64,000 nucleotides of DNA from assembly GCF_963675165.1 (NCBI RefSeq), contig NC_087378.1, forward strand, positions 2,949,525 to 3,013,524, in the 5' to 3' direction. The notes under the pieces were generated by a model that saw only the letters and a list, made by a program, of their open reading frames with translations, ran no database searches and was not told the origin of the DNA. Below are positions 963-62,580 of this stretch, piece after piece. The stretch's first letter is position 1; each line of letters opens with the position of its first letter. This DNA is from Halichondria panicea (taxonomy: Eukaryota; Porifera; Demospongiae; Suberitida; Halichondriidae). Position numbers and translations under genes: made by a program.

Positions 963-3900
963 ATGCCCACAGTTGGATTGGAGGAAAACCCTAACACTGT
1001 CTCTGAATCTTTTGGTGAAAGGTATAGCGCTACTAGACTGCATGCATGAGAACTTTTGCCCAGCTGTCTATGTCTTGGTGCTCCATACACTGGTACATTT
1101 TAAACATTTATACTTATATGTACGTTGAATGTATACACTGAGTCACTGAATGTAGGGCTAGGGAGGACTTAACTGAAACATCTGATCTCCCTGATGGTAA
1201 TCAAAAAATAATGTATGCAGCATGTAGGTATGTAGTTTTAAACTGCAGTCCAACTAAGTGATGCTCCAAGTTTTCCCAGTTGTAAAAGTGACAAGAACTC
1301 AGTCTCAAAATCCCATTCTTCTGGAGACGATGGCCTACTGGATCCACACCGATTCAAGAGTGCATTTGTGCAGGTGCCGTACTAAAGTTTGATTTATACT
1401 GAACTGCATTACTATAATATACATAGGCTGTGGAAGAGCTTCGGATGAGAAGGGTAAACTCTTACATGTGTGGTAACTTGACTTGTTGTGTGCAATATTT
1501 CAGACCATAGATGTGGAGAATGACTGTCGTATCAAGAAACTAGAAGATAATAATCATGACCTAAAGAAAAAATTGGTTTGTCTTCTGTTTAGTATATCTT
1601 ACGTGTATCTATACACTTCCTGATGAGTGTTTAATGTTACATTCTTGTTACATGTAGGAGGACGAAAAAACTAGTATTGGAACATTAATTGAGGGGCACT
1701 CTCAAATTGAGCAGAATCTAAGATCAGATTATGGAGAGAAAGTTAAACAAACCGAAAATGAAAAGGTGAGGTACTACACTACAATGGTGGTGTGATACAA
1801 GTACTTTTCTAGGTTAAGACACGTATCTTGGGAGAAAATTGGGACTATGAGCTCAAATCTCTCAAGGATAAGATAAGAGCGCTACATGTATGTCTATAAT
1901 TAATTATCAGTATTTGACTACGGTTTTCATACTTTCTTTCCTGTTTCTGTAACAGCTTGTAAAATACAGTCTTGAAAAGAAGGTGACTGAACAAAAGAGG
2001 CAGCTCCAGCTTCAGTCCTCATCCAGGGATGGCTATCTTTCACAGATGAATGATCTGGATGAAAAATTTGGCGCAGTGCTCAAACAGGCTGACTTTATCT
2101 CTGAGCAGATGGAAAAACTGGAAGCAAATGGTATATACAGTGGAACGTCTAATAATTGAATCTTACATGTACTTGTACCTTATACACACCCAGTACCCAT
2201 AGTGTATAAAATCTCTTAGACACACTAGTAGATAAGATCTACATGGGAAGTACATGGGAAGTACACGGGAAAAGTGCCTCAGAGCAGGTATACTATGGGA
2301 CTTAGTATACCTGCAAATTTACTAAATATACCTAGTATTCCGTTCAAGTAATTGTATTGTAGCCAAGCGGTTTGCGTATGCGCACTGGTATCTAAATGAG
2401 TTAGACACTGTTTTGGAGGTGTCTATGGGATTTAGAAGCCCAAAGGCACTGATTTAGTATCCCAAGCGTATTATTGGCCCCGTGTATTTTATGAACTTTC
2501 CACTATCGATCTCACTTGATTTGTAATGTCCATGTAATCATTGTTTTTAGTGAAGGCTTCAAAAGATCTCCACCTAAAGCTGCAGTATGTCAATGAGCAC
2601 CGTACTTGTGAATTGGAGGCGTACAAAACTAGGCTTGAAGATTGCCGAGCGGAGCTTATGGAAGAGACTTGCATGAAGGTTGTTGAGGTACATGCGCCAG
2701 AGTGCACGGAGGTAGTCACTACTCGGACAAAAGCAATTGACCAGGAGCTAAAAATGGTGCGTCTTAATAGTTAGCTCATATTTTTGTTATGTAAATCTAA
2801 CATATACGTTCACTTTGATGAGCTATCCACTGCTTTAGAGTGTAGTTGACTCTATCTACTGTCACATTTCAATGCTCACTAGTTTTGCTTGGCCCCAGCA
2901 AACTGAATTAAACAAGCAGCTACAAGATCAATTGTCAAGCCTAAGAAAGGAACACCAAGATATTTTACGACAGCTTAAAGATGCTCATTCACTAATTGAG
3001 AAACATGCACAGTCACTTACTACTGCCACAAAGAGTGAGGTAAGAAATTATTACGTGATGTGAAAAAGCAGCAATATGTATGAAAATGAAAGCCGGTTAG
3101 CAGCAATTCAACTAACAGGGGCAATAATGAATGCTGAAATTCAGTGATGTGAACACCATGCATAAATATCACAGACATGCACTGGGAGTCAGCAAAGACC
3201 CTGTGGTTGTGAGACACATACAATTGTAACCACTGAGAGTTTAGCACTTTGCTCAATAATAATCTCTAGTTACGTGTAGTTTGTGTAAATGTTATGTTTC
3301 ATAGGAAGAGTTGCGTAAAGAAACTACATCACTCCATGAGACGATTGATCACCTGACACAAGAAGTGGATCAATCTCACAAAGCTGAGCAGTCAATTAAA
3401 GAGGAATTATCAAAGGAAAACGAGTACTGGTCGGCAAAAGTATGTCATTGTACAGTTTATGTGCGACTGGACAGTTGGCACTGCTATGTATTAGGGTCGT
3501 GCTAGGTTGTCCTTCTCCTTCCGAAGTATGAGTTTGAAGGGTATTTATGCCCCAATGCGCTGCGCAAGCGAGGTATACGGTAGTGCGTCTGTCTACGTAG
3601 ACTGCTATAGCTGCTCAAGGATCAATGAAGTGCAAGTACATTGTAAGGGTTTCTAAGGCTTCTAGTAATGTTTTCTTGGATTTTAATTTGTGGATTTGCT
3701 TGGTTCTCGAGTTATGCCTAGTGCCATTCATTGCAGCTTTTTCGGAAGAGTGCGTAGGAAAACTTGTCCATGGAGTGTTGCTACTCTACTTAGTAGTTAG
3801 CTCCGCACTAGAACGCTAGCTATTGGTAACTAACTGGCAAGGCTGCAAGGCTCTACTGTACTGCAGCAGCCATTAATTTGCACTTTGGATCCTTTTAGCA

Positions 3901-5437
3901 AAAATCGTGGTCGATGATTCCCACTCTTTGAGTTTCCCTGTGATTATGCATGCATGCAGCAAAATTAACGCAAAAATTAATGACTAGTCAGTATCTTTAT
4001 GTTATATATAGCTTTGACACATCCACCGAGGCATCAGCACCTGCGGTGCTTTCATTTCATTTTTCCTATCAGTATTCAGATATCGATGCTCGTCTGAAAT
4101 CGCTTCAAGAAGACTATACAACTCAACAAGAAAACCATTATAAGGAATTGGAAACAAAAGCAAACCAGCTGACAACAGTTGGAAAGTCTGTAGTCGAGCT
4201 CAAAGACGAAGTTGCTCAACTCCAAGATCAACTAATTACTGCCCGGGGAGAAGTGAGCTCTCTGAAGGAGCAAGTTCATAGGATTACAATTGTAATGTCG
4301 ATCGATGCATTTCTGTACCATGACCCTTACGGCACAGCCAACTTTTCACCTCAATAGCCATGAATGTACACATGAGTCTGATTCACGCTAGTGTTATTGT
4401 TCTGCAGGATGCTCAGCGCACCCTCAGCCAACATTCAGTGCAGATCAGTAGTACTACTAGTGAGAGCTCCTACTCACCTAAAGTAACAAATCGTCATACT
4501 CCACTTACCTCAGTTCCCAATTTGGGAAGCTCACCTGAAGTTACAAATCGTCGTACTCCACTAACCTTGGTTGGAAGCTCACCTGACCTTCTTGGGTCAC
4601 CAACCACACCCCTAAATACATCTAATAAGGTACGCTCAGAGAGAAGTATAATGTCAATATTATATGTACCTATAAAATTAATGTCTAGTTTGCTCAGCAA
4701 AAGTATAACCGGTAATAAGTATGATTACCACATAGGTGATCAAAGGAGAATGTGCTCAATTAACTAGAATAGAAGAGATTCCTGTGTCTATAAACACACA
4801 AGAAAGCGGTCAAAACAGTGAACTAAACAACAGTCTCACTCAAATTAAGTCTTCACAGGGTGCAAAGAGGCCGAAGATTGATGAGGAAACTGAATACCCT
4901 GCTAAGAAAATTTGTGCTGACCCCGTAAAGCCAGAAGATGAACAAATCGTTGCATACATTAATAATCGGCAAGTGACACAATTAGAATTATCATCAGGGA
5001 ATATGTGTAATGAAGAAGCCTCAAAAAATATACAACCGTCCATCACTTCACACCAAATGAGTGTACCTGCTGATTTACAAAATACACTCCCTTGCTATGA
5101 TCAACCTCGAGAAATGTGTACCAATGTCATGAAAACTGATTCTCCTCAAGCTGTAGAAACGACACAAGAACCCCCCTCAACCAACGAGAAACTATCGCCC
5201 ACCTCGAATCAAATGATTGAATCCCAAACTATGTCCACAACTTGTGGCCAATTGCATTCCGATGTGGCGCAAAAAGAACCTGGCCCTCTGCCCACTGTTG
5301 TACCTATTTTGTTCTCAGATGACGATGATGGTGCTGGTGAAGACAGCCTTTGGAACACACAACTTAACATGCAAATTGACAAGGTGCAGACGGTTCTGAA
5401 ATTGGACAAACTGAGGCGACCAAAGAAAAACAGTTAA
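963..5437 (+). CDS. CCDC73: CCDC73-like coiled-coil protein, 13 exons
   Basis: Exons: 963-1021, 1280-1373, 1427-1453, 1504-1575, 1658-1765, 1813-1887, 1956-2130, 2551-2756, 2899-3039, 3305-3439, 4073-4291, 4408-4629 and 4736-5437, in frame for 744 residues. Exon 3 is a 27-nt micro-exon encoding AVEELRMRR, almost the same as ALEELRMRR in vertebrate CCDC73. Further on, LKDKIRALHLVKYSLEKKV parallels LKETLKALQVSKYSLQKKV of that family. Residues from about 50 to 430 are heptad-rich coiled coil. The rest is Ser/Thr/Pro-rich with an acidic patch (FSDDDDGAGED) and a basic end (RRPKKNS). Known CCDC73 proteins have no defined biochemical function and are testis-enriched. The least certain points are the exon 2 acceptor (1271 or 1280) and the exon 11 donor (4273 or 4291). 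The gene converges on DNA2. Confidence 0.82.
3546..4063 (+). repeat. Dispersed ~540-bp repeat family, copy 1
   Basis: Nearly fills intron 10 of the CCDC73-like gene. It begins with a hairpin-like GC-rich block (TGCGCAAGCGAGGTATACGG) and ends ACCGAGGCATCAGCACC..GCGGTGCTTTCATT. Similar copies lie at 46463-47000 (plus) and 58293-58833 (minus), with diverged copies at about 53374-53835 and 55330-56045. The right end stops nine bases before the exon 11 acceptor. No coding capacity seen; probably a non-autonomous mobile element. Confidence 0.75.
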
Positions 5438-9400: not shown

Positions 9401-12400
9401 ACCGTATAGCGCAAACTTTTCGAGGGGAGGGGCTCAATTTTCGCTGTTTTAGTAATCCTATATGAAAATTAATTCCACGAAAATTGTTTTTGATTAGAAT
9501 TATTTTTTATAACGTACAAAGATTAAAAGCGTGGCCTCCGGTAAGCAATTTATTCAACGTAGAGGCCATTCCACAAAATTTAAAGTGCCTTGAAAATTTC
9601 GCGCTATACAGTAGTGCCTGTATACATGTACATGTATACCTCTCGGAATCTGAAGTACAAAAGTCAGCCAAACTTCCTGCCATAACTCCTCCCCCATAAG
9701 ACGGAGCAGCGTCAATACGGTAGAGAAAACTTGCAGATACTGCCTTATCCACCAACACCTCCATATCCCCAGCACACATTGGTCTAGTGATGGTTCCCAT
9801 GGTGAGGGCCCACCCTCTCCCATCCTGTCTGCTGATGACCACCCTGTCATTGATGGTCAATACACTTTCACTACGCCTCTCACCAAGCTGTGTGCAGGAT
9901 GCTTGGGTAAAAACCTGAATCTGTCTGCTCAGTGGACACGACATATCTGCCGGATTGGCTGTCAAGTTGGCATGGCAACAACCCTCTTTTTCGCTGCATA
10001 TAGAATATTGACCAGCATGACTGCATACAGCATGTGATAGGCTTTAGAAAACAAAACATCATTTTGGAAATTACGCATTCAGTATTACAGCACACCATGA
10101 CATTATACAAGCCTGATTGCGTTGCAAATTGCATGCAAAGCATGCTGCTGTATGCGCATCTTTGCAAGGCTTTTTTTACAATGTATGCGAAAACTTGCAT
10201 TCATCATCGAAAGAGTCTCAAAACCCAGTATACGATACTCTAATTGTAGACAAAGTTGTGCATAAGAGTATACACATAATCATAGGTTTTAAGACACGCG
10301 ATGTATTGTATCATAATGGGGTACATGTTACATAATTGTGTACAACAGTGACAAAAAGCATTTAAGCCGCCTTTAACCAGAGTATAAATGTACCTTAATT
10401 AGATAAGTGTAAAACAGCATAAAATTTCGAAACTGTGCACACTAAACAGAGGACACACCTTTCCAGTGGGTCAGTGAGCCAGAGCGGGGTGCTATCTTTG
10501 GCCTTGCTGTGAGCCTCTTCCAGTGCAACGAGGCCATACCACTTAACAAAGAAGTCTAAGTGACTGGGGGAGAGGTGACTTATTTGCTCAGTGAATAACT
10601 CTCCTACTCCACTGCTTAGCTCATCTCCTTGCTCTAATGTGCTGAGTGAGATATTGACATAATATTGTGTAAGCAAGCAGCAAGCATTCATCCGTAGGGC
10701 AAATACTATGAAACCATAAGACGTAATCCTCACTAGTTACATAATCCACATATCAATTACAAATGGGTCACTAGTACATGCAATTCCATGTGGCAGGAAA
10801 TAAATGTTTTGCGTTGGTACAGTAGTGTAGTGATTGAACGGCATTGCTAACAAAGAAAGTTTTAACATAGCAAAGGCTTCGACTTGTGACATATGTACAT
10901 GTACCTGTGGTAAAGCATGCACTCTTTGAGGCAGGGGCAGTACTTGCAAGTGTGCTTATCCTTCAATAGCCCAGGCATATCCATGTAGTCACCAGAGGTG
11001 GTGTGGTAACGTGACAGGTGGTTTCGAGCATTTATGAGACCTACATGTAACGAAGCGAACAAGGAGCACAATAATTAGGTGAACACTAAAACGGCTCTCA
11101 GCATGTTATGTGACCACACCAAACACGATAACAATACGAATTTCAATTTACAGACTGAAACACTGCATGATAAAATGGAGCCTCACTTCTATCCCTAATC
11201 ACTACAACACACACATGCTCGCACACACCCCGTATTTCGTGAGGCAGTGATGGTAGACCCTGCATGTGGCCAGTCTTCATGTAGTAGAGCAGCCCCCCGG
11301 TGGGATGGGCGGAGTATCGGTCACTGAGCATCAGAGTGTAGAGAGCCACCTGTGTACATTGTTGAGCAGAAGATTCAACGAATGAATTGGTAGCAATAAT
11401 CAGTAACGATAAGAATGGTGTAACCAACTTTTGTGAGATTTTACAATACTGTAAGTGTAGTACATTGTACACTTGAGAAGATGCGTACATGTAATCGGAT
11501 ATACGATACAGTGTAGTTAAATAGCCGGTACTACTTAACCTCATCTACACAATATTAATAGAGTTGCATGCCGACATTAATTTTATAGACTCCTAAAGCA
11601 AAACAAAATAAACAAAATATTGTTCCTCCAATAATAATACCCACACCTGTGCTCTGTGCTGGATTGTCCCTTGAGTCCTGAACATTTTTCCTGTCTTCAG
11701 CTCTAGAGGTACTCGGGTTGTCTCCGTAGTAAGAGATTTCCTTCTCTCTTTAATGGTAACAGACACATCCACCTTCCCTTTCAAACCATACCTGCATAAT
11801 ATAGAATAATTTTGTCAGAAAAAAAACACATTACAAAACAAACCAGTAACACTGCATGCACATGCATGAATTAACCCATGTACATACATGACTGTATGTA
11901 AAATTTTGAAGAAAATGTGTTACCTTGGTGACCATATGTTTTCTTCAATGTCCTGTATGTCCGTAATGGCCACACAACTGATGTTACCACCCTCAGAACC
12001 CGGCCTGTATGTATGCAGTACTCTCAGTGAAACACATGCATGTGTGTTTATGTTTTGAAACGTAATCATAAAATGAAAGTGAACTAGCTACAATGTATAT
12101 ACAATTTTAATAGCAATTGCACAAATGCTTCAGAAGATGTCTTGACTAAAAATGAAACTCTCAAGAGTTAGTTTGCTACATGTACTAGCTATACTTTACA
12201 TCACTTCAAGCACAGGTACGTAATTCAAGTGATTATAAAAGTTATGAAAAGTGTAAGAGCATAATAATATGATTGTATATAGATTCTCAAGACTGCACCT
12301 CTGGAGTTAGATTTGTCGATGATTCAACTAATGGTGACAGGAAAATTGAGATTTATACGAAAAAGTGGTTGTTCGTTTGCGCTTTCAGTGGATGTAAAAA

Positions 12401-12672
12401 CACTGGTTCAGATTGTGACCTTATGGCATGTACGAATCATACGATTAAGAATAACACTGAGTGCCTGGCAACAAGCACTTATTCTGGATCTCAGCTAACA
12501 ACATCAACCAATGCAAGTGAACAGCCCACAATTCAGTCTACGGACCTCTCCAGTGGACTTGGAGCATTAATAGCAGTGCAATTTCTTGTGATAATTGGAA
12601 TGATTACTGGATGGGTTTGTACACGTGTACAAATGAAAAGGAAGAAGGGAAAATACACTATCTCGTAAGTTA

Positions 12673-12717
<45 letters not shown>

Positions 12718-15700
12718 GTATGTTGATGTACACATTTTTATGAAAACAAACGCCCATGCACACAGCAATGCTATGCATATCGAGAACCCTGCCTACAGGG
12801 ATATCCACCACACGGAGCCTCAACCAACACCAAATCTGGCTCATTACAGCAGTCAGGACACTTCCTACGACATTCAAAACGCTAGCTCGAAACACAGCGA
12901 AGATGAACACCACACGTACGCTGTGATACCTGCTGATAGGTCCACTGCCGTAGGGAAACGGCCAGCTAGCTTGATGGATAACTCCAGGGAATTAGTGTTA
13001 CATGAGGTCTCTGCTGCCCCCCCACCACCCATTCCAAGGAGATTTTCTGCTTGTGATACCAGTATACCCCAGAGATTAAGCATAGCCTTTTGCAGCACCA
13101 GACAAAGTTCCCTACAAGATTCCCCCACTAGGTTAAGTGTTTTACATAGCGATTCTTTAAATGAGCCCCAGGGAAACATCTACCAATTACCGGATCGAGA
13201 GTATGAAGAAAGTAGTGACGGTGAGCATATCTACCACATTCTAGAGGACGGGGGTTTCAATGACTCAAATGAACAAACGCTGGGTCGAATCTCATGGTTT
13301 GGATCTGATGCTGGAGTGATATGTGCCGCTGATGACGTTTCCTCAATTTCCAGTGAGGAGGACTGGGAGGGAAGGACACCCACTACTTACGAGGTACCGA
13401 AATCCTTGTTGGCAGTTCAAGATGAAATACGATCATTATAAGTACACTACTAAAATACACAAACTTGAATGAATATTTACATTAGTTCAAATATTGAAAG
13501 CTAACAATTATTGGAAAATCGGCCCATGCATACATACAGTACTTCATGTACTAGATCACAAACACAACTTGTAAACTTTGACCTTTTGGATACGCCGCTT
13601 TGTACTATTCAATGACAGGAAATGAATGATGTGACTGTGATTTCATTACACTTTTACAGACTTTAATATCTATTGTAGATCATGTAGATTTTCATAATTT
13701 TTGTATTATTAATTATTGTAAGTACACGCAGTGGAATGTATCTACATGATGTAGGCCTATTATTGCAAGTCATGATCATTACGTCAACAATCTTGACATC
13801 TATATGTAATATAATTATTGACTGAAACCATCTTACTAAAGCACTAATTGATCAGCGTGGTTGTATAGCATGTCTAACAACTAAATGTGAATAAGTATTA
13901 TACCATATCCGCTCATGTCTATAGAGTATAAGTATACCATATTGCTCATGTGAAAAAATGAGCGATAAAGCCTAGGGGCCAGTAAACTGATATGAACCTC
14001 ACCCACAGCTAAAGCAAGGCTTTGGGAACAGCATACTGGAGTTTTAGGTAAGGCCTTGGGGACTAGGATCATAGAAGGAAAGAAGTAGCATTCATTGGTG
14101 GATCCCAGCTTCGCAAGTTCGCATAAATACAGCCATGCATGCTCTGTTAGGCTGAACATATACAGTGAAGTGCTTTGAATTTAAGATGTACATGTAGGCC
14201 GGTAGATTAGTGATTAGCCAGTTAACGTGCAAGTAAGCTTCTTAGCTTTTAGTAGCTTTTGTTCAACACGAAGCTTTATAAACAAAATCTGCCACATGTG
14301 ATGAGTTAATAATAACTGAGCCTATACATGCTGTAAACGCAGCGATTTGGCAGCCAGGTGAGCAAACTCATGCATTACAGACAAACAATTGTAAATACTA
14401 TAACCAGTGCCTTGAGTTAATGAGTAGAACACACATTTATAAAGCGTTACGGTGTGTGAAAAGTAAGCCTTGAATCACCCACCCCCTTGATAAATTGTCT
14501 ATTGCAGCCATAAGAAGAGTGTCAAACTACCAAAAGTACTGTTAACAAAAGTACTGTTAACTTTCACAAACATGACATGCAAACGTATAACATACTCTCC
14601 TATACACCTTGTTCCCATTTAAGGAAAAAATGAACTCACATTTTATGGTCAATGTTTCCATGTCCTTCAACTGGTTCACTGTGCATGTACTTGTCACACC
14701 ATTCCACTATGGCCGGAGTATACTTGGTCAAAATTTCATGTGCACTAGTTTCAGACATTTCCAGACAGAAGCTGTATTGTGCATTACAAAGAAACACAAG
14801 ATTATAGGCATTGCTTTCTTGTCAACTGGAGTTCAATGTCTGTTGCAGGTTCAAAAATGCCAGTCCCCGCAATATTGTCAAGAAAAATGGGAGTGACTTA
14901 CAGTTGGTCTAGAGTGTCAATGGACATGAGCACTTTCCTTATCTCTTGTATCACCACATCGCTTAGTTTGGCCTCTGAGAGACTTGGTCCTACCTCTTTT
15001 CTTCTCAGCAGCACGTGTTGAAACACTTCATGCAGCAGCTGCCCAATCAGCATTGCTTCACTACCAGTGGATCTTTGACTCTTGAACTTCTCAGAAAGCA
15101 CAGCCCTAGAAGAAAATGAGCCACCGTTGTTGAACTGGTTTGTGTAACCAATAAAATAAATATAAAGAACAAGCATACATAATTATGTCATCTAGGCTTA
15201 GCTACCTTCTCACACAAGTAACACTGTTGGCCACACTAGTACCACTGATGAGCGTGTCAGGGTTAACCACAATGCTGCTGAAATGAGAGGTGTTGTCAAT
15301 CATGAAGCAGGAGCTGCTCTTATCATACTCCGCATTCAGTTGAATTATATCCCCAGGCTGAACATCAGTGGTGAGCCTGTACAACAACAGTAGTGCACTC
15401 TAATGAAGACCAAATACTTGAATTTACACCTACCAATCATCTCGTAAGAAGCAAACGTCCTCAATGTTAGTTTTCTCTTCAAACAGTCTAAGCATGATCT
15501 CTGGCTTTGGTCTATAAAACAGAGTAGAGAACAACATCGTATAATTTATGGTATATTTACCTTTCTAAATTGAAGCTCATCTGTGAAACTTTTTCCAAGA
15601 CAAGGTAACGACATAGACTAGGGGATTCTGATTGTCCAGTAAGCGAAGAGCTCCAATTTGACAAATCAGATTCATCTAACAAATCTGATAAATTGATATC

Positions 15701-18700
15701 CTCCAATAGCCCAAAATCGGATTCTTTTTTAACATCACTCGAATCATCTTGTGAATCTGTCTTGGTTTTAGGAAAAAGAACTTTTCTTCTGGAAAAAACA
15801 GGCGTTTGTTTCACAGAGCTTAGGTTGGAGTCATCAGGAGTGGAAAATAAGAGAGCACTTGTGTCTAACTGTAAACTTCTGTCTTTCGATTCAAGAAATG
15901 GACTGAAACGCTTAAGAGAGTTTTTACGCGGGGAGAAAGTAGGAGACACTGGTAATGGATTTAGGTTTGATGGTTTGACGGGAGTTGACAATTCTGAAGT
16001 AGTTTGATGAATATTTAAAGGATGAGTGCTTTCAGGAATTGGGCTGACGATGTGGGCCTTCTTCTCAAAACTGCTTAGATCAGAGGGACAAACTTGTTTG
16101 TGATTATGACCGCTATCAGGAGTGCATGAATAGCCGCTATACATGGATAAAAGATTGATTTCACTATCACTCAGCCCATCTTGCTTGAAAGTCGTCGAGA
16201 TACTTGATAAGTCACACTTGGTGGTGCTTTTTTTTTCTGGAGAAACAATTGTGCGATACTTTCTTTTCCTAACTTTCAAGCTTAATGGCTGCTTTCTTGA
16301 GCTTTCATCTCTCCTCAATTCGAGATCTTCAGAATGATTGCATTGGATTTTTCTAGTGACAAATGAGTTGTGCACAAGAGTCGCATTGTCCAATTGCTTG
16401 AGTGTCTGCTCATTCTTGACAATGACTGGGGAATGATTTTGATAACTACTTGAAGGCAACTGAACTTCTTCATACACTTGAGCCTCATTATTTACTTTGA
16501 AGAAGTCAGTGACAGTAGACTGATGGGGAATTGCCTACAAAATATAGAGCATAGCAATGAAGTAGCTAGAAAACACTTCGAACGATAACTAAAACTTTAA
16601 TTTCAACTTTCAGCTGGCCTCGTCACATACATGCTAATGTGGTGCGGAGCTACATGTAGCATTGTATGGACGGACATGGCCTGTAACAAATAGTGATTGT
16701 ACAAAGTGTTACTACATTTTATATTGTACAAAAATTTAATACTATATATAGCGGGTAATTTTCGGGGGTCAAAACATTTGTGGTTGAGCAATCATAAGTT
16801 ATTTCGTGGACAGAGGAGGCCCGACATGCGTGTACAAATCACTACAAGTTCAGTGCATTGATGTCATTGCTGTCACGTGATAGCCTTTAGGCCAATGCAT
16901 TGAACTTGTAGTGATTCGTGCATGCATGTCGGACCTCCTCTGGTTCGTGGATATTCATTTTATGGAAGAGAACTGGTAAAGGTGGTCAATGATCGCTTTA
17001 TTTGTTAAATTATTAGAAAATATTTACCCACGAACATTATCCGCACAAATAGAAAACACGCTAGTAGCTGTTTCCACGAGGCTTATGGGAGGCTATTTTT
17101 CAGTGAGAGGTATATAATTTTTATTGAGACGTGACTTTTTAAGTGGTCTATGAGGCGTGTATTTTTTTGATGAAGTGCGTTTTGTAAGAGGCCAATTTTT
17201 AGTAGGAAGTATGTTTTTGGAAGGTCTATGTTTTGAGGTGCATTTTTCTGGAAGAGGTGGTGCATGGTTTAAACGTCAAATGAGGTCCCATGCACAGTTT
17301 GAGTTAGCTGAAGAATTTAAAGGTGAAATGAATTAAGTTAAAGTCACAGACACAATTCTAAGTACGAGTGATTGGTACAACCAAGCTGTTCGGAGAGTGT
17401 TGGTGCATACATGTTATACCTTATTACGTAATATTTACTACACTTTAAACCATAATTTGCTGCTGTCAAGTTGTACTTTTGGACTCTAGCATTTAGCCTC
17501 ACTATTGTTAACATTTCCTCTCTTTGTTCATGTGAGCCCCACGCAGGGCCTCCATCACTGTATTTTGTGCTCCTGCAGCCATTTTGTACTCACTTTGCTC
17601 TCTATCTAAGAATTGTTGGCACAGCAATAGTGAAGTCAATTTGCATGAATGCTTGCTATAGTTTAGCTACAGTATTTCAATTGCATATAGCGGAATAGAA
17701 CCTGTTTCTATTTAGATCTAGCCTGTCTAGTATCACTTAGCTAACTATTTGTCTATCCGAGAAAGGGCTCAAACAGAGAGTATTATGTCAGTGTGTTGCT
17801 GATAGCTATATAGACATTTGCATGTCATTCTAGTGGGAACCTCTTATAACGAACTCTAATTTCATGTTTCTCATCCTGCTGTAGCCAGAAACTATATAAG
17901 GTTGGACACAACATAATACAAATACAGCCTGAAACCACAAAAAGTGATATTTGTAACCGCAAATGACCATTGCCTGATTTAATCTGGAGGCTGCAGAGCT
18001 TATTTTCTTCGATAATATCGTGCCTATAAGTAATTTGGAGCCCAATTGCTGGGGATGTGTTCCTGCTTAAAAGAGAACCCGGGAACTCTGTAGTTTCAGT
18101 GTGCATGGACTTGAACAGGATGACATTGTTGGTCATGCTCCGTTTCTTTAAACAATACAACTGATGTGACTATTAGACACTGACCTATTCTTGGTGTGTA
18201 TTATTTCATATTTTTTTTGTAATGTTAATCTGTTCCTAAGACAATGGCTATATGTAAATAATGATCATTATCTTTGCACTGGAAGTCATTGTTGTCCCTA
18301 CATGTACATACATGTACCTTATTAAACGCATTTGACCGGGGTAACATAACTATAATAAAGGACACCTCCGAATAGTGGACAGAAACTCCTGCTGAGGTTC
18401 CACTGTATTATCATAACAGCCTATTATTCTGCCTATTATGTCCGCACTATTCCCCAGTTTAAAGTATGAGGTACAACATACACATACCTCAATCAACAAT
18501 GAGGTACACATGCATGGTACTGTTTGGAATGAGGGATGAAAGAATCAATACTGTTATTAGGATAATTTCTCATCTTAGAGTAGTATCAATTAACAGTGTG
18601 GATGCATGCACTCATAATTATGGGGTAAATGCACGATGCTACCGTAGTGCTAGAAGATACAAACTAATGCTATAATTATATTTATGTGAGTGCCTACGCA

Positions 18701-19151
18701 TAAATTTGTATCACCAATATTGCCTTTATTCGATGCCTGTACAATCCCCATTGGTCTACAGTGTCAATGGACATGAGCACTTTCTTTATCTCTTGTATCA
18801 CCACATCGCTTAGTTTGGCCTCTGAGAGACTTGGTCCTACCTCTTTTCTTCTCAGCAGCACATGTTAAAACACTTTATGCAGTAGCATCGCGACGTTTAA
18901 TCGAGGAAATAACATCTTATGATTGGTCAAAATGCAATCTTCTATGCTCGCATACAATTATGTTTATTTCATGTAATAGGATAGTGTCTTCTTGTTTCTA
19001 TAGAACACCACTTTGTATCGCTTGTGGTGTTCTTCGATGCATGCCCGTTACTGTAGGCCTTGTGTATTGTATATGCTTGATACATTGCTTTTAATAACAG
19101 CCAATATTATTCCCCGCATTATACAGACCATGCACAATTAATTGAGCGGTC

Positions 19152-19244
<93 letters not shown>

Positions 19245-20422
19245 CTTTATAATGGCCATGCACATGCACTAGCCTAGAATCATACCATGCCAAGGAGATA
19301 ATATTTTCCAACAAGTCATATGACATAATTATGGAGACGTTATTTATACTACTGACTCGCTCCCTATAAAGCGCCTAACATAATTCTCACCAATAAAATG
19401 TACCTACTGGGCTCAACATCATGAATAATCCACCAAGGCTCTGATCTGCACACTCAAGCAACTAACACCGCTTTATAGCACAAACTCTGTGATAACTATG
19501 ATTATAGCTAGAGTCAATACACAAGAGTCCAGAGCATCTCCAAACCCGCTTGGATGCACCAATCACTCGTGTATTAACCACAAACAATCATCGCACCCAC
19601 AGTACATAGTTATAAATAATGCCAGGAGTGCATGAATGCCTAGCTATAATTATCCTGTGACATGAGAACATGAATAGCATACAGCATACAGTCATAGTTG
19701 AGCTATAAACTTACAGTGTGGCGCTTTCTATGGGTCCTATGGCTCCTGTCTTAATGTAACACTTACAGTAGATTTTTCTAAGATCAGTGATACAGGATTT
19801 AGATTTAAGGCGACACTCTAAATATGCGACGTTTCGATGTTTTGTGTACATAGTCTTGTAGAAGCCTAGGTAGTATAATTTTCTTCTTCAAAATTAATAG
19901 TGCTGACGGCGCATAAAATATAACTTGGACTTGGCGCTTCTATTAGGGTGGCACTGTAATTAGAAGAAAGACGATATACGGTAGGTTCATGTGCCAGAAT
20001 AATTTTGTATAATTATACCCTAACAAAGATTTAGATTTAAGGCGCCACTAGGACGTTTCGATATTTCACTCATAATAGACACAATAAATTGCGAGGAGGT
20101 TGGTGTGTGCACAGAGTTGTAACTACGTTCTACAAGACTATCGGTATGTACACAAAACAAATGGTGCTATAATTATGTCAATGCATGAGTGAATGCTCTA
20201 CTGAGCATCTTAAATGTCACTTTGAATCGAGGTCATAATGGTTATAATTATGTAGATCTAGATCTATAATAAATTTACCCAAAATGAAATTTCAAGGACT
20301 GTTGCAAATTTTACCTGTCCACCAAAGCAATGGTTGATAGTAAGTTGCCGAGAAGAGCCTGTTTGCAGGCTCAGCTTGGGTCTACCTCTCTTGATTTTGC
20401 TAGACTTCTTCATGTTCTTCAT
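6464..20422 (-). CDS. DNA2: DNA replication helicase/nuclease DNA2, 20 exons
   Basis: Exons (high to low): 20422-20315, 16534-15561, 15511-15434, 15376-15206, 15105-14902, 14771-14640, 12004-11924, 11791-11647, 11349-11229, 11040-10905, 10641-10459, 9993-9640, 9101-8960, 8838-8674, 8335-8157, 7905-7762, 7714-7622, 7393-7087, 6974-6771 and 6625-6464. Together they encode 1,360 residues in one frame. DNA2 removes long flaps in Okazaki-fragment maturation and resects DNA ends. Seen: iron-sulphur cysteines (TCVRR, then [10 protein letters not shown]), nuclease motif LELKTGK (about 613-619), Walker A GMPGTGKT (955-962), Walker B IIDEAS (about 1066), [34 protein letters not shown] and [14 protein letters not shown]. 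The long N-terminus holds a PIP-box-like QSTVTDFF (41-48), QLTINHCF (26-33), an AT-hook-like KRGRPK and several CDK-type sites (SPEK, TPVK, SPRK). All catalytic motifs are intact. Exon 1 is the least certain exon but has good context and phase. Confidence 0.95.
8386..8557. repeat. Inverted-repeat element, GTATAGC-end family, copy 1
   Basis: Lies in DNA2 intron 14. Left end GCGGGTAATTTTCGTTGG, right end CGAAAATAACCTGCTATACGGTA, imperfect inverted repeats. Internal AGGATAGTGACGTTGAATC recurs inverted in the copy at 48206-48379. About 170 bp, no coding; a MITE by form. Confidence 0.7.
9400..9613. repeat. Inverted-repeat element, ACCGTATAGCGC family, copy 1
   Basis: In DNA2 intron 12, ending 27 bp from exon 12. 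Ends are ACCGTATAGCGCAAACTTTT and GAAAATTTCGCGCTATACAG. Related copy at 45929-46125; a right-end fragment at about 31100-31140. MITE by structure. Confidence 0.65.
12152..13441 (+). CDS. Single-pass membrane protein with tyrosine-motif tail, nested in DNA2 intron 6
   Basis: Three exons on the strand opposite DNA2, wholly inside its intron 6: 12152-12215, 12283-12664 and 12766-13441 (373 residues). Start [20 protein letters not shown] is a signal peptide. The short ectodomain (about 22-110) has six cysteines and NHT/NNT/NAS glycosylation sites. A membrane helix spans about 113-134 ([20 protein letters not shown]), followed by a basic stop-transfer KRKKGK. The tail of about 230 residues has NPAY (NPxY, PTB-type) and several potential SH2-type tyrosines: YAVIP, IYQLP, YEESS, IYHIL and TYEVP. 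It also has a proline run (APPPPIPRR) that could bind SH3 domains. I do not recognise a named family; a signalling receptor or adaptor role is inferred from these motifs only. Intron 2 is nearly filled by an AAT microsatellite. Confidence 0.75.
12675..12717. repeat. (AAT)n microsatellite
   Basis: About 14 AAT units inside the 101-bp intron 2 of the nested membrane-protein gene, 11 bp after the donor. Confidence 0.95.
14215..14400 (+). repeat. Diverged fragment of the composite GTAAACGCAG repeat family
   Basis: AAGCTTCTTAGCTTTT...CATGCTGTAAACGCAGCGAT..CAGCCAGGTGAGCAAAC matches the core unit of the family seen at 23243-23942 and 49818-50588. In DNA2 intron 6, distal to the nested gene. Confidence 0.6.
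16811..16942. mobile_element. Near-perfect palindromic MITE, CAGAGG ends
   Basis: 132 bp in DNA2 intron 1. The arms, about 50 bp each, begin CAGAGGAGGCCCGACATGCG and end CATGTCGGACCTCCTCTG, and include a matching ACTACAAGTTCAGTGCATTG block. Flanks share TTCGTGGA, a probable target-site duplication. The ends match those of the element at 49212-49369. hAT-like by CAGAG terminus and duplication size. Confidence 0.75.
18590..18960. mobile_element. MITE-like repeat carrying the DNA2 exon fragment
   Basis: In DNA2 intron 1. The left part (..CTACCGTAGTGCTAGAA.., then GCCTGTACAATCCCCATTG) and right part (CGTTTAATCGAGGAAATAA) both match, in inverse orientation, one continuous repeat at about 62440-62580. 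There the two halves are separated by only about 10 bases; here 136 bp of DNA2 exon 5 sequence separates them. Outer limits are approximate. Confidence 0.65.
18751..18886 (-). pseudogene. DNA2: Duplicated fragment of DNA2 exon 5
   Basis: Aligns without gaps to 14904-15039, inside DNA2 exon 5, with six mismatches in 136 positions (about 96%). The copy is purely exonic: it begins two bases inside the exon's donor end and stops before its acceptor end, so it has no splice sites of its own. It lies in intron 1 of the same gene and strand, within a MITE-like repeat. It is a fragment, not a usable alternative exon. Confidence 0.9.
19151..19241. repeat. (CA)n microsatellite
   Basis: About 90 bp of nearly uninterrupted CA dinucleotides in DNA2 intron 1. 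Confidence 0.97.
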
Positions 20423-29283: not shown

Positions 29284-29482
29284 ATACCATAGTAGTGCTA
29301 GAAATAATTATGAGAGCATAAAATATTGTGTTTTGGCCAATTTCAAAGCTACAAAAACTTCATGCGATTTATTTCCTTGGGGCTTGAATAAAGATCAACA
29401 ATTGTGCAATACAAATTTATGCAATATTATAAGCGTTAGCATTAGTTTGTATCACGCATACATTTCTAGCACTACGGTAGAT
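29284..29482. repeat. Inverted-repeat element, TAGTGCTAGAAAT ends
   Basis: Left ACCATAGTAGTGCTAGAAAT, right ATTTCTAGCACTACGGTAG. Shares TTTGTATCACGCA and ACTACGGTAG with the repeat at about 62360-62580 and with 18590-18960. Confidence 0.6.
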
Positions 29483-33373: not shown

Positions 33374-36300
33374 ATGTCAGTCAAAATTGTGTTTGAAAAG
33401 AAACAGAAGGCTTATACTACTCATGTCGAGGAAAATGGAATATTTTTTGTTCAATTAGACACTAAAGAAGCCTACAAACTTGCTGAATTATCCGATCGAA
33501 TTTCTAAGAGTATTGAGTCAACTGGTACACACAAAGTCATTCCTGAGTATGGCCTGAAGTGCTTTGCTCTCTCAAAAACAGACCAAACATGGTACCGAGC
33601 ACTCGTTGTTAAAGTTAAAAGCTCTAACATCAATGTGTTTTATGTAGACTATGGAAATACTGAAGACCTTGCCATAGAACAGTTAAGTGCATCAGTCGAT
33701 TCTTTCTTTGAGTTTCCCTACCAGAGTGTTTGTTGTACAATTGCCAATTTCATCCCAAAAGACGCCAATTTTGGGTCCAAGGTAAAGGATCTGATCATGG
33801 ATCGAGAAACCTGTTGTGTCTTCCTATCCAAGAATGGATCCAAAGGCCATCCTTTTCTGCAATTCTTGCCATGCTTCAATGTTCTCTTATACGAGAATGA
33901 GAAGAGTGATGTCACTCTAGCTGAATTTTTAATCAAGAGGAAGCTTGGCGAGTATGCTGTTTGTGCTGACAATGCTGAAGTAGGCACGAATCAGAATGTA
34001 GTTGTCTCCTTTGTAGACTCACCAGGAAAATTCTGGGTGCAGCTATCTAAGAAAATGGGAGCTTTGGAAGAGCTCATGAAAGAACTAAACAGTCCAACAA
34101 CCCTTCGATCATTGGCTTCATTACCTGATGCATCCATTCGTGAAGGTGTAGCTTGCTGTGGCCTATATGACAATGATGTCCGTTTTTATCGTGCTGAGAT
34201 CTCAAGTCGCAAGTCAGGTACAAAAGTGAAGGTCTGGTTTGGAGATTATGGAAACACTCTTACTGTTGCTACGAAGGATCTGAAAATTCTCCCACAGCAA
34301 TTTACACGATCTCCATTCTGTGCATTAATGTGTGGTTTAGATGGTGTGTTGCCCGTTCGAAGCGACAAACCACACCCCATATATGGCAACATCGCTTGGA
34401 CCCCTCAAGCAAGCAAAGACTTTACAGCCTTCGCTCTCGAGGAAGAATTTGTGGCTCATTTTGTAAGCGAGCTTTCTCCAGATGTGTACACAGTACGCCT
34501 TACCGATCCAAATACTGGGAAGGATATGGGAAGAACTCTAGCTGATAATGGTATTGTTGAGCTGTCTGCCTCTGCCAACCTTCCAAATGAAATTCCTGCT
34601 GATTTCGAAAACATCACTATAGAAGTTGGCAAAGTATATGAAAAACTGTTTATCACTCATGTGGAATCGCCATCTATTGTGTGGGGTCAACTGCCTGACT
34701 ACCTGGAAGAGATGGAAGCATTGACTGCCACACTGGAATCTATAGGCGCCAGTCTCCCTGAACTGATTGATCCTGAAGTAGGAGCTTCCTGTTGTGCTCA
34801 GTACTCCGTGGACAATGCTTGGTACAGAGGTACCATTGAGAGCGTGAATGTTGCTGCCAAAAATGCTCTGGTGTTGTTTGTTGACTATGGCAACAGTGAA
34901 GAAGTACAGCTGACTAGTTTGAAAGCCCTTCCCAGTGACTATTTTGCTCTCCCTGCTCAGGCTATCAGTTTCTCAATGGCCACCGTTGCTCCTTATGAAG
35001 ACGATTGGAGTGAAGATGCTCGTGATTTTTTTGTGGACCTAGTACGGGAGAAAGAACTCAATTGTTTGGTTATTCGACTCGATGACGACGGATATCCTTC
35101 TGTGACCTTGAGTGACCCACAAAGCCCAGATTATGACATTGCTCAAGAATTAGTTCAATGTGGGTATGCCATTGAGCTGCCTCCTAGTATTGCTAACTTA
35201 GCAGTTTCATCTGAACCTCAAGCCACTGTCGCGGTTCCTAAGCATTCTTTGAATTGTCCTCCTGAAGTTGAAACTGCTCCGGTTAACTACGAGTTTCTCT
35301 CAATCAAAGTGGGAAAATTGTATGAAAGTGTTTTCATAACCCATGCCGAGTCTCCATCTGTTGTATGGTGTCAACTGCCTGAGTACCTGGAAGAGATGGA
35401 AGCATTGACTGCCACACTGGAATCTATAGGCTCCAGTCTCCCTGAACTGATTGATCCTGAAGTAGGAGCTTCCTGTTGTGCTCAGTACTCCGTGGACAAT
35501 GCTTGGTACAGAGGTACCATTGAGAGCGTGAATGTTGCTGCCAAAACAGCTCTGGTGTTGTTTGTTGACTATGGCAACAGTGAAGAAGTGAAGCTGACTA
35601 GTTTAAAAGCCCTTCCCAGTGACTGTTTTGCTCTCCCTGCTCAGGCTATCAGTTTCTCAATGGCCACCGTTGCTCCTTGTGAAGACGATTGGAGTGAAGA
35701 TGCTTGTGATTTTTTTGTGAACCTAGTACGGGAGAAGGAACTCAACTTTTCGGTTATTCGACTCGATGACGACGGATATCCTTCTGTGATTTTATTTGAC
35801 CCATGCCCAGACAGTGACATTTCTCAGGAATTACTTGATTACGGGTATGCAGTTAAGCTACATGCGGAAACAGAAAAAGACGCAGATTCACCTGAACTCC
35901 AAGCCGCTGTCTCGATCCCCAAACTGAAACCTCCATCTTTGTCAGAGCTTCTTGAATTTGAGTTTATTTCATTGGAAGCAGAAAAATGTTACAAGAACAT
36001 TTTTATTACTCATGTGGAATCGCCATCTGTTGTATGGTGTCAACTGCCTGAGTACCTGGAAGAGATGGAAGCATTGACTGCCACACTGGAATCTGTAGGC
36101 CCCAGTCTCCCTGCACTGGATGATCCTGAAGTAGGAGCTTCCTGTTGTGCTCAGTACTCCGTGGACAATGCTTGGTACAGAGGTACCATTGAGAGCGTGA
36201 ATGTTGCTGCCAAAACAGCTCTGGTGTTGTTTGTTGACTATGGCAACAGTGAAGAAGTGAAGGTGACTAGTTTGAAAGCCCTTCCCAGTGACTGTTTTGC

Positions 36301-39300
36301 TCTCCCTGCTCAGGCTATCAGTTTCTCAATTGCTACTGTAGCTCCTCGAATAGGAAATGACTGGAACAAGGATGCCTGCCAGTGTTTCATTAGTATGGTG
36401 CAGGAGAGGGAGTTGAACTGTGAAGTAATTCAATTAGATGCGGATGACTATCCATATGTGCATTTGTTTGACCCATTGCACCCAAACACTGATATTGGGC
36501 AGGAGCTCGTGCGGCGTGGTTTTGCTAAGAAGCACCTTCCCGCTTCCTCGAATGAAGACAGTGATGTGAGATTAGTGCCATCTGGAGCACAAGTTGCTGT
36601 CGCAAGCCCTATAAAGATAACTGAGCAAATACCGAAACAGCCACTGTGTTATAACAACATTGCTCTAAAGACTGGGTGTACTTATGAAGTGCTTGTTTGT
36701 CACGTTGAGTCGTTAACCAACTTTTACTGTCAGTTGACTGAAAGTTCACCAGATTTGGATGAATTAATGGACAATATTCGTTGTCATTGTGGCTCTTTGA
36801 ATTCTTCCTCTCCTGTTGATGTCAGTAACATGGTCAATCAACCAATCATTGCCCTGTTCTCAGAGGATAGCGAGTGGTACCGAGCTCAAATCTGTCGAAT
36901 TGAAAGTGAAGGCTCAGTCTTTGTGAAATTTGTCGATTATGGTAATTGTGAATCTGTCTGTTTGGACACTACCAAAAACATATTGAAGACCTTTGTTCAG
37001 ACTCCAGCTCAAGCTATCTCGTGCTCACTGTATTGTGCTCCTGAGAATACCGATATTTCTGATGACACCACCACCACATTCTCCAGTTTAACTCTTGATC
37101 AGAACTTCACGCTAAGTGTAAAGAAGATTACTGACGATAACCAGATAGTTGCTGACCTCAAATGTGAAGATGGTACTACTATTACCCAGCAACTTGGTTT
37201 AATCCACGCTTCAGCTGCAACTCCAGATTCTTCTGCAATTAGAACTGTTCCTCCACCCATCGTCAGAGTGAATTGTCCTACTACTGTTGTGCCTTGTTTC
37301 ATTGATACACCATTTCGCTTCTACCTTCAACTGGCTGATGATTATGAAACTTTGAAGACTTTTGTTGACTCATTTAACGACTTCTACAAGCTGAATGGTC
37401 AGAATCTCGAGCCATATGTAGGTTGTTTGTGTGCTGCAAAATTTTCTGAAGACCATGTCTGGTACCGTGCAAAGATTACAGGTATATGTGGTAGTCAGGT
37501 AGACGTGGAGTTTGTCGATTATGGTAACTCAGAGACGACTACAATGTCAGCTGTTAGAGCCTTGGACTCCCAATTTTTGTCTGTCCCCTGTTTTGCTGTT
37601 CCCTGCTATCTTAATGGCTTGCCAAAAGACCAGTCAACTGATGCTGACTCCCAAGCATTCAGCAACTTGATTAGTGACAAAGAACTCACAGCAGAATTTC
37701 ATGCTCCATTCTCAGATTTTGACACTTTTGTTGCTGTGCAACTCACAACCAAAGAAGGACAAGATATTCTTGCTACTTTTCTCTCTGCTAAGGATGTGTT
37801 ACTACAAGAGCAAATTATGCTCCGAACATTCGATACGCAACAGATAAAAACACTCTCTCCTGATCTCAACACGCCAACTATGTGCACTGTGTCCTTCATT
37901 TCCAGCTGTAAAGAGTTCTACTGTCAACTGTCCACGTTCAGTACACATTTTAACGAGTTAATGGACAATTTGTATGCTTTCTATGAAGAGGGGAGCAATG
38001 GCAGTTTACTGGCTGCACCTGGTATAGGCTCTTACTGTGCTGCTCCGTTCTCTGACGATGGCTCGTGGTACAGAGGTGTTATTACTGACTTGAACTCACG
38101 GAGTGCTTCTGTTTTTTACATGGACTACGGTAACACAAGTGAAGTTGAATTATCCAAATTAATGCAGTTGGAGCAACAGTTTTGCTCTTTGCCAATCCAA
38201 GCTCTGCTTTGCAGTCTACCTCAACAGTACTCCAATGAAAATTGCTCAAACTCCTTCCAAGACACCCTCGACCAGTCTGTGGAAGTCACGTTTATTGACA
38301 GGCTCCCAGATGGCAGTTTCATGACTGATATGAAAGTGAATGGCATACGAATCAAAGAGATTCTTGCTCCGTATGCTACTCCTAATTTATCGACTACTCT
38401 GGACAATACTGACATTTCTGCTGTGATTCCCGAGTGTGGCCTACCCATGCAAGTGACGGTGTGCTTTGTAGCCAGCTTCGAAGAATTTTATTGTCAAATT
38501 CTATCGGAGAGTGCTTTTGATAGCTTGATGAACGATCTCTATTCATTCTATGCAGAGAGTGGGGAAAGCCGATTGTTGGCTACCCCAGCTGTTGGCCGTC
38601 TGTGTGCTGCTCCGTTCGGTGATGATGGCTCCTGGTACAGAGCAAAAATTACGACAATCTCCGGAGAAAATGCTATTTTGTTCTACATTGATTACGGCAA
38701 CTCTGAGTCACTTCCTCTTTCTCTTATAATGGAACTAGAGCCACAGTTTTGTGGTTTGCCTGCACATTCTATCAAATGCTGCCTGAAGAATTTCACTGCC
38801 ACAGAAAGTCCAGAGTGCTTAACAGTGTTTCAGGAAATTATTCTACAGAAAGAAGTGCTTGCTGTTTTTGAGCCCCATGTTCTAGGTGACTGCTATTCTG
38901 TCACTATGGAAGTAAATGGGCGGAACATATCTGAGATACTTATTGAAGCCGTATCTCCTGCTTCACTGCAACCTGTGGAAAGTGTGACTGCTTCAAAGAA
39001 AATATCACCAACAAACAGTTCCCCAAAAATACCACTGCTGTCCCTTGAACCTGGCTCCACCTGTGATGTGGTTGTAACAGCTTTCAATTCTGCTGAGGAG
39101 TTTTACTGCCAGGTGGTTGACATCGAATCAAAACTTGACTTTTTGATGGTCGAAATCAAATCGTTTTGTGAAAGTAGCCCACAAAGCACTGAGTGGTGCG
39201 AAAAAGAGTGCGTTCTAGCTCGATTCACAGAAGATGAGGAGTGGTACCGTGCTCAGATAGTTAACCTCAACAAAAATGGCACAGTGAAAGTGTACTATGT

Positions 39301-46125: not shown

Positions 46126-46462
46126 TATCCCTCACTGTTTCACTGTTTATAAATAACAGCCTGCAACTTGAGTCTGTTGACTAGTTTTCTAAAGAATTTT
46201 TTCTGTTTAAAATCCCCCCCCCCCTCCCCCCCAAATATTGGCGTGCCGAAAATGAAATTGTAGTACTCAAGGATCACACCATGAACAATTTAATTTGATC
46301 TTTGTGGGATATGATAAAAGAAAAATTGCTATTGTTATAATTATAATAATTATGGGCATAGTTTTGACGTCAGAGTAGGCTCTTGTGTAGATAGTAGTGA
46401 ACCAGAGAAGGTGCGACAAGTGCGGTGTATCTCGAGCCATTAGCCTCGATTGAAAACTGTAA

Positions 46463-47000
46463 TTATGCCTCGGTGCGCATGCGCAAGCGAGGTATACGGT
46501 AGTGTATCTGTCTGTGTGTGTGTGACTGCTACAGCTGCTCAAGAATCAATGAAGTTCAAGTAAGAGTTTCTATAGGCTTCTAGTCATGTTTTCTTGGATT
46601 TAATTCGTGGATTTGCAAATGCTTCATTCTCAAGTTATGCCTAGTTTTGCTTACTTGGAATGCCATTGCAGCTTTTTCATAAGAGTGCGTTGCAAAACTT
46701 GTCCATGGAGTGTTGCTACTCTACTTAGTACTTAGCTCTGCACTAGAACGCTGGCTATAGGTAGCTGCAAGAGTGATAAGGAAGAGAGCTGCAAGGCTCT
46801 GCTAGTGCCATTCATTTTAGACTTGGACTTTTGGCATTGATCGTTTTTGACAACAATCATAGTTGAAGTTCTCTGTAGCAAAATTAATGCAAAAATGTTC
46901 ATCATGATAATAATGATAGCTATAGTAGCTTTATGTTATGTAGCTATGTTATGTAGCTTTGACACCTCCACCGAGGCATCAGCACCCGCGGTGCTTTCAT
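46463..47000 (+). repeat. Dispersed ~540-bp repeat family, copy 2
   Basis: Begins TATGCCTCGGTGCGCATGCG and GAGGTATACGGTAGTG; ends CACCGAGGCATCAGCACCCG and GGTGCTTTCATT. Same order of blocks as 3546-4063 (GCTGCTCAAG.ATCAATGAAG, CTTGTCCATGGAGTGTTGCT). Confidence 0.8.
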
Positions 47001-47010
47001 TATAATTAGT

Positions 47011-57700: not shown

Positions 57701-60700
57701 AGTGAGGTTCCTGTTGATGGTCGTCACCCCATTGAGCCAGCTCCTTGTGTTTGAGAGAGTCAGTCTCAGCGTAGACCTCTCTTACACTTTCCAAATCTTC
57801 TTGACTCCACGTCCCACGACTGTTCCCACTACGACTGCTCCTACGACTGCTACCACTGCGACTGTTAAATGAACAAACACACCTATGAAGTTTACTCACA
57901 AAATACCACAGATTACACCAAACCATGCATTTGGGACAGCAGCAATGACAAGTTAGGCATGTGACGATTATGCGAGCATAATTTTGAGAATTTAATAGGC
58001 AGCTTCTAGAAGTTGTGCGGGAATAAACGGACAAGTGGGTGGGAATAATTTTCCCATGTGGATAGAATTCTAAATAACGTACATTTACCGTTTGTGTGTT
58101 AGCTAGCTAGGTTTCTATTTCAGCATGGAATCTGGAGAGATTAGCAGTAGGGTTAGTGCCCCTCCTAGCACAACAGGCACCATTGTAACTGATTCTAATA
58201 CAGCTAAAGCCAGTTCCCAAGAGTCATAATAATTAGTCCTGTGCGTGCGCAGCAGGGGTAGGAGTGATTGCATTGTGAATGATAATGTTGTTAAAATGAA
58301 AGCACCGCGGGTGCTGATGCCTCGGTGGAGGTGCCAAAACTACACAACATAAAGCATACACACATACTGAATCAATATCATGATGAACATCTTGCATGCA
58401 GAATCCAGAATCACAGGAAAAGAGTGGGTAATGATCGACCATGATCGTTGTTAAAAACGATCGATGCTAAAAGTAAAAGTCTAAAATTATAATGGCTGCA
58501 TGCATTAGCAGAGCCTTGCAGCTCTCTTCTCACTCTTGCAGCTACTAATAGCTAGCGTTCTAGTGCAGAGCTAACTACGTAGCAACACTTGGTGAACAAA
58601 TTTTGCTACGCACTATTCTAAAAAGGCTGTAATGGCATTCCAAGTAAGCATAACTCGAGAACGAAGCATTATTTTGCAAATCCACAAATTAAAATCCAAG
58701 AAAACATGACTAGAAGCCTATAGAAACTCTTACTTGCACTTTATTGATCCTTGAGCAGCTGTAGCAGTCTACACACAGGCACACACACAAATACACTACC
58801 GTATACCTCGCTTGTGCATGCGCACTGAGGCATAACTACTAACTTGTTGCGTGAAGGCTATCTTGCTGTAAACGCAGCGCTATGGAATCCAGGTGAGTAG
58901 ACTCATGTGTTACAAACAAATAAACAAACCAACGGATTACTATACCCGTGGCCGCTCCACGCGCACCTCGGGTAATAACATGCAGATGGGAATGAGAATT
59001 ACTACACCAGCATGATTCATCTTCAAATATTTTCTTCAATAATAACTTATTATATTATATTATAGCTAAGCAAAATAATGTCCCTGTAGGATGATTGTAA
59101 GCATGCATGACTACCAATAAGGGACGCTCATGTACCTGTACATTTACCTTGAGTGGATGGACTTGTCGCTCCGCTCACTGTTGTGACTCCTGCTACTCCG
59201 CCCACTACTGCTGCTGGTGTCACTGTTGTAGCTGGATCTACTTATACTCCTGGTCAACGTATCTCCCTTAACGCTCCCACTTTCATGGAAGTAAGGGCTA
59301 GCAGTCAATGAACGAAGCGGCTGTTTCTTGCGCATGTAGTGGACGCACAGTCCCAGTAGAACACTCCCTACTATGAACAGGCCTATAACCGCCACCAAAA
59401 AAATGCCCAAAAGGACCTGAGTGATCGTGCTCTCAGGAGAGTTTTTCGAATCTTCAGGAAACTGTGGACACTCACAGTCACTGCCTGTAATGCTAGAAGG
59501 AAGCTCATTGGGTAGTGCTGTGTGTGTATGTATATGTGTAAAGATGAAAAGGGAATTTGAGTGGGCTGATATACCAGAAGAGGATAGCCAGGGTCAAAAG
59601 TTCTTAAGTAAAATATGCTTCCGAAGGACTTTAATTGCATTTCGATCATCTACTCTTTCTTTGCTTCAGTCACAATGCAAGATTGGAGGTATTAAATAGA
59701 TCAGAATGCATGCAATTAAAGTCCTCCGGAAAATTTTTTATTGACCCTGACTATTCTCTTCTGGGCTGGTACTGTGCATGTAAATGTAGTGCCAAACTAC
59801 TGGGTAAAGGTCGTCATAATAGTAAGCAACAAGCAAGGTACACGTTACATGTAGATAGAGAATAACACCAAAAGGGAATTGAACTTACTTATTTTCTCAG
59901 TCTCAGGAGTCAGTTTCCCCACAATATCATCAAACTTGAGAGCAATACTGACCCCAAATTGCCTAAACTGCGGTAGCTGGTCTTCTGGTATTGAAATATC
60001 AATAAAATTTGTGTTTTTGAATGAAGGATGGATTATTTCCCTCTGTTGAACGACGGCAGTGTTGAATATGAACTTGACTATTAGTGAGAACACTCCAGGG
60101 ATGACAGCGGGCAGGGGGGCTCGAATGCGGACATTGCCGTTGGTCTCAGATGTTAGTGTCACAGGGAAGTTATTAGCTGTACATGTGTGTTGAGTGAATA
60201 TTGCCACCACTAACAACCTTAATCATATGGACATAGCCACCTTAATCATATGGACATAGCCACAACCAATTACTATAATAATGTTCAAGAATTATGTCTA
60301 TGTCTACATCTGTATGCTAATTGTATAATTATGCCCTAAATAACACCAGAATGCTTTAACAACTCAGGGTGTCATACAGGGGGGAAGGGGATACTCCCCT
60401 CCGGCTCTAATCCCCCCCTCACCGCATTCAGGTACTATAGTTATTTGACTGAGTGTCCATAGCTGGTAATGTTACATACCAGCAGGGTATTGAAGTAACA
60501 GTTTACCTTTTTTTAGCAAAATGTTTTGGTTACTTTTCAAAAGCATGCCTTATTTCCCCCCTCTATTTCAAAATCCTGTATGACACCCTGCAACTGATAC
60601 ATAATTATATATAAGGCAGCTGCCTTCTAGACCCATTAACACATTGAATGTAAGCAGTCTGTTGGTAGGGTGGGGCATGGGTCCAGAAAGCAACGTACAG

Positions 60701-62359: not shown

Positions 62360-62580
62360 CTTTATGCACATGGAAACCATCGAGCATAAAATATTGCATT
62401 ACAAAAAACGTTATGTGATTTTTATTTATGCGATTAATCTTATCTCCTCGATTAAACGCTGCAATTTCAATGGGGATTGTACAGGCCTCAAATAAACAAT
62501 TGTGCGATATAAATGTATGTGATATGATAGGCACTCGCATAAATAGTTTGTATCACGCACATATTTATAGACTACGGTAG
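62360..62580. repeat. MITE-like repeat without captured sequence
   Basis: Holds ATCTCCTCGATTAAACGCTG, CAATGGGGATTGTACAGGC and TTGTATCACGCACATATTTA..GACTACGGTAG. This is the uninterrupted counterpart of the element at 18590-18960 and shares its right part with 29284-29482. Confidence 0.6.

Follow-up and report, generated by a model that had tools for sequence, protein, structure and literature searches.

Insertions templated from nearby sequence, with 0–20 nt of microhomology, form a published class, and for templated insertions a hybrid model has been described in which one broken end is primed by microhomology and the other end is joined (PMC11724301). The same source reports that loss of the DNA2 nuclease raises templated insertions in yeast and describes this role as conserved to humans. 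Transcripts have also been described as able to guide break repair, in the reported case independently of DNA synthesis (PMC11390984). Among transposons, Turmoil-1 of C. elegans is a described example of capture by an animal element (PMC2572040), and Pack-TYPE elements have been modelled from pairs of neighbouring elements (PMC8903248).

Here we describe a piece of DNA2 exon 5 that lies inside a MITE copy in a window of 64,000 nucleotides from the sponge Halichondria panicea (contig NC_087378.1, positions 2,949,525 to 3,013,524 of the forward strand); all positions below are those of the window. The preliminary description of this DNA had proposed a Pack-type capture of host sequence. Our analysis instead points to a local templated insertion, in which the piece was probably copied in place, during the repair of a break, into a MITE that was already old.

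An exon 5 copy inside a MITE

The gene was identified as DNA2 from exon translations joined by eye, which matched the Pfam Dna2 family (PF08696, E = 1.1e-54) and solved DNA2 structures (E = 8.7e-54). Pairwise matching bore out the recurrence of exon 5 sequence that had been reported earlier: the two stretches match over 136 bp with six mismatches, no gaps and the same orientation (Table 1). In a whole-genome search with the entire interval of the preliminary description (18590–18960) as the query, the copy matched its source at E = 5.8e-56 and no third place for the DNA2 piece was found. When the complete exon was searched against the genome, again no third place appeared at E <= 10; because such searches score the best candidates only, the single-copy result is strong rather than absolute. 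The source exon is intact and lies 3,711 bp from the copy, and the chance of a random landing less than 4 kb from the source is about 6e-5.

Table 1. Positions, strands and supporting evidence for the features of the locus.
Feature	Position	Strand	Basis
DNA2 exon 5	14902-15105	minus	GTAAGT donor, CTAG acceptor; Pfam Dna2 and DNA2 structures on joined exons
Source stretch in DNA2 exon 5	14904-15039	minus	Pairwise match and genome search
Probable DNA2 intron 1	16535-20314	minus	Exon 2 acceptor at 16534 and candidate exon 1; read by eye
Candidate DNA2 exon 1	20315-20422		ATG to GTAAAA donor; read by eye; plausible
Interrupted MITE copy	18640-18979	plus	Consensus BLAST to 18961; 18962-18979 decayed, from multiple alignment only
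Partial copy of exon 5, DNA2 sense	18751-18886	minus	First three bases, TTG, common to the MITE, leaving 133 bp new
Left junction	18751-18753		TTG common to MITE and source
Right junction	18886-18887		No shared bases; two MITE bases lost (consensus 126-127, AA)
More decayed MITE copy	29292-29479	minus	BLAST of consensus positions 1-237, 72%
Further MITE copy, insertion site intact	62426-62579	minus	BLAST of consensus positions 1-167

The copied piece is on DNA2's strand and, since the bounds of exon 5 enclose the source stretch, entirely exonic, as had been claimed; it begins 2 nt inside the 3' end of the exon. Its position within DNA2 intron 1 is probable, provided that the by-eye reading of exon 1 is right. 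Three of the six differences (E to K, Q to stop and R to K) affect residues at which exon 5 agrees with the aligned DNA2 structure, so that at least these three changes probably arose in the copy. The stop is an in-frame change of CAA to TAA, and with the exon's GTAAGT donor also missing, we rejected the copy as an alternative exon. No function of the copy is apparent from its sequence. As it lies in the sense orientation, DNA2's own transcript would hold two direct copies and no antisense one. An assembly mis-join at the insert appears unlikely from the sequence, since a single contig of 8.6 Mb contains it, the MITE halves are collinear on both sides, and the six differences make the copy no mere echo of the exon.

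Two other features of the DNA2 introns were observed. A foldback at 16811–16942 in intron 1, with two 66-nt arms that are 82% complementary and separated by no spacer, is perhaps another MITE-like relic. At 12273–13438, inside a DNA2 intron, the plus strand (antisense to DNA2) contains open frames that resemble a nested gene, whose product would have a tyrosine-rich tail and a hydrophobic stretch of membrane-like character.

The element that surrounds the copy belongs to a family of about 241 bp that is bounded by long terminal inverted repeats (TIRs), as defined by a multiple alignment and BLAST of the resulting consensus. A search with the copy at 62 kb returned at least 40 matches; 30 of these loci and three from another search gave 33 copies, which were aligned together with the joined flanks from the window, while L054 was left out as the query had no match there. 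Two near-identical pairs occur among the 33 (L018/L025 and L022/L028). The better-preserved copies carry TA...TA at their ends and show no longer duplication in the flanks, as would be predicted for a MITE that inserts at TA. The consensus is predicted to fold into a strong hairpin (z = −6.5).

Consensus positions 1–125 match at 18640–18753, 128–156 at 18887–18915 and 180–225 at 18916–18961, and the interrupted copy further lacks consensus positions 157–179, as a separate gap, and smaller stretches of its left half. Both halves thus match one family consensus, which upholds the earlier view of a single MITE-like repeat interrupted by the exon piece and led us to reject the alternative that the flanks derive from two unrelated repeats. 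The flanks are also contiguous in the repeat at 62360–62580, where, on the opposite strand, nine bases separate CCCATTG and CGTTTAATCGAGG (about 10 in the preliminary description). Of the interval first proposed for the feature, the left edge did not hold, as the MITE starts 50 bases further right; on the right, the BLAST match reaches 18961 and the multiple alignment extends the element, with a decayed end, to about 18979. None of the 33 other aligned copies carries the DNA2 piece, and in each a single BLAST match spans the site. Within this one assembly the empty insertion site is therefore seen in 33 paralogous copies, with the site itself deleted in L050. In a separate observation, the MITE copy at L045:1430–2154 is split, at another point of the consensus, by a 527-bp insert that is probably a nested element; the overlap at that break is 2 bp.

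We then compared the exon 5 pair with other repeat pairs. Among the 45 pairs listed for the window, no other with >=90% identity outside tandem arrays is as long; the other pairs at this identity measure 47 bp (23634/50447), 45 bp (50547/58935) and 30 bp (a perfect inverted pair, 50982/51718). The arrays set aside lie at 34.6–36.5, 44.9–45.4 and 56.3 kb. Large overlapping direct repeats at 34623–36504, 84–94% alike, represent an internal tandem duplication, and three copies of a roughly 550-bp dispersed repeat occur in the window (46459–47005, 58291–58839 and 3541–4057). We also scanned 40 loci (166,663 bases) for pairs of at least 40 bp with a spacing of at least 200 bp and an identity of at least 88%, and obtained pairs in L010, L013, L017, L058, L059 and L063. 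The pairs in L017 and L059 are multi-copy repeats, that in L013 consists of two copies 254 bp apart, that in L063 is inverted and 41 bp long, and those in L010 and L058 are array-like. No second clear local patch was found among the pairs checked in these loci (L013, L017 and L059), which are repeats or close duplications.

Origin of the insert

The intact consensus at the insertion site reads CCCATTG-AA-ATCGCGG. The interrupted copy shares TTG with the source at the left junction and no base at the right, and it has lost the two As, as in end joining. By chance, a 3-bp overlap would be expected at one given junction in about 5% of cases and at either of two in 10%, and the TTG overlap is therefore weak evidence when taken alone. 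Neither junction has a target-site duplication or a poly(A) stretch in its sequence.

Differences from the respective parents suggest, weakly, that the MITE copy predates the insert. Relative to a leave-one-out consensus, 20 of 186 sites of the MITE part have changed (10.8%), versus 6 of the 133 new bases of the insert relative to exon 5 (4.5%; Fisher p = 0.06). When the decayed right tail is left out, the MITE count becomes 16/170 (p = 0.12 against the same 6/133); the left half alone gives 8/104 (p = 0.41) and the right part, tail excluded, 8/66 (p = 0.07). In a tree of copies the tip branch of the MITE part is 0.145, versus 0.047 for the insert.

The nearby source, the single copy and these junctions lead us to favour in-place copying during the repair of a break. 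The source is still present on the same chromosome, as in local insertions. Under this model, an old MITE copy would have been present beforehand in DNA2 intron 1, and a break would have occurred near its middle, possibly favoured by the predicted hairpin of the element. The left end, ...CCCCATTG, would then have paired with the exon 5 TTG, at a distance of 3.7 kb, and a polymerase would have copied 133 bp, presumably from a DNA template and in the direction that this pairing implies. Joining of the new end to the right side would have cost two MITE bases without any shared base, and the exon 5 copy would subsequently have decayed without selection. The argument from nearness is weakened by the local hopping described for DNA transposons (PMC8903248).

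We considered whether the break could instead have been filled from DNA2's own transcript, either primed by the TTG or as cDNA, to give a sense, exon-only copy. The piece is indeed exonic throughout and starts 2 nt from the 3' end of exon 5, and RNA origin has been argued for the class 2 insertions of PMC5110952. Exon-only content points weakly toward an RNA template, and the lean is slight because 942 of the 5,646 windows of the piece's size in the exon 1–6 region (17%) are exon-only, with exon ends good to 1–2 nt. Because the piece comes from one exon only, with no splice junction within it, a DNA template explains it equally well, and poly(A) is absent; the orientation of the insert has no power to separate the two templates. 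The transcript-guided repair of PMC11390984 is not a direct precedent, since repair there was independent of DNA synthesis. Taken together, we regard an RNA template as unlikely. If it were true, and if exon-only patches were common in the introns of this genome, they would preserve, in the germline of an animal, a durable trace of break repair templated by RNA.

Pack-type capture, in which the MITE would have taken up the DNA2 piece elsewhere or in the course of transposing, before it moved or made a local hop into intron 1, we consider improbable. A host-gene piece does sit inside a TIR element, local hopping of such elements is known (PMC8903248), and Turmoil-1 provides an animal case, while anatomy alone would be the same for capture in place and a repair patch. 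Against this, the piece occurs in none of the 33 other aligned copies and, in the genome searches, in no third place, and its source lies in the same gene, 3.7 kb away. A single element is involved here, versus the two neighbouring elements of the Pack-TYPE model in PMC8903248. If capture had preceded movement, the piece should have decayed roughly as much as the rest of the element, whereas the MITE part seems, on the weak evidence above, to be the older. On these grounds we did not retain the capture reading of the preliminary description. We judge it improbable as well that the MITE break took up, by ligation, a broken-off genomic piece of exon 5 with no copying from the MITE end, as this model, which is named for templated insertions in PMC11724301 and suits the blunt right junction, gives no special reason for the 3.7-kb proximity or the shared orientation.

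Consequences and relation to described systems

If the local templated insertion that we favour is correct, this locus illustrates how a host-gene piece in a transposon can be misread as gene capture. The surrounding MITE is informative in this respect, since its paralogous copies provide the sequence of the empty site and a rough relative date. Source and copy now form a direct repeat of 136 bp, 3.7 kb from one another, and recombination between them would remove exons 2–4 and part of exon 5. The allele may consequently be somewhat unstable, and we infer that this passive effect is the likeliest one. That loss of the gene concerned raises templated insertions in yeast is a coincidence, and nothing here links that role to the patch.

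Like this locus, the Pack-TYPE transposons described in PMC8903248 have part of a host coding sequence flanked by the two ends of a non-autonomous TIR element. This locus differs from them in having one copy, a decayed right end, a single element and no sign of later movement: the genome searches returned no third place for the DNA2 piece, and the right TIR is decayed. The class 2 templated sequence insertion polymorphisms of PMC5110952 are also similar, with a small deletion and microhomology and with target-site duplication and poly(A) absent. Their template is described as coming from a distant region, and we kept the DNA2 patch out of this class because its source is only 3.7 kb away.

The local templated insertions of PMC11724301 are the closest match. 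In contrast to the cases described there, the event at DNA2 is reconstructed from one inherited genome, without induction, and the copy landed in a MITE within the gene that supplied it. As in those cases, the source is nearby on the same chromosome and intact, and the microhomology falls within 0–20 nt. The DNA2 exon patch is most likely a new instance of an event type that is already known.
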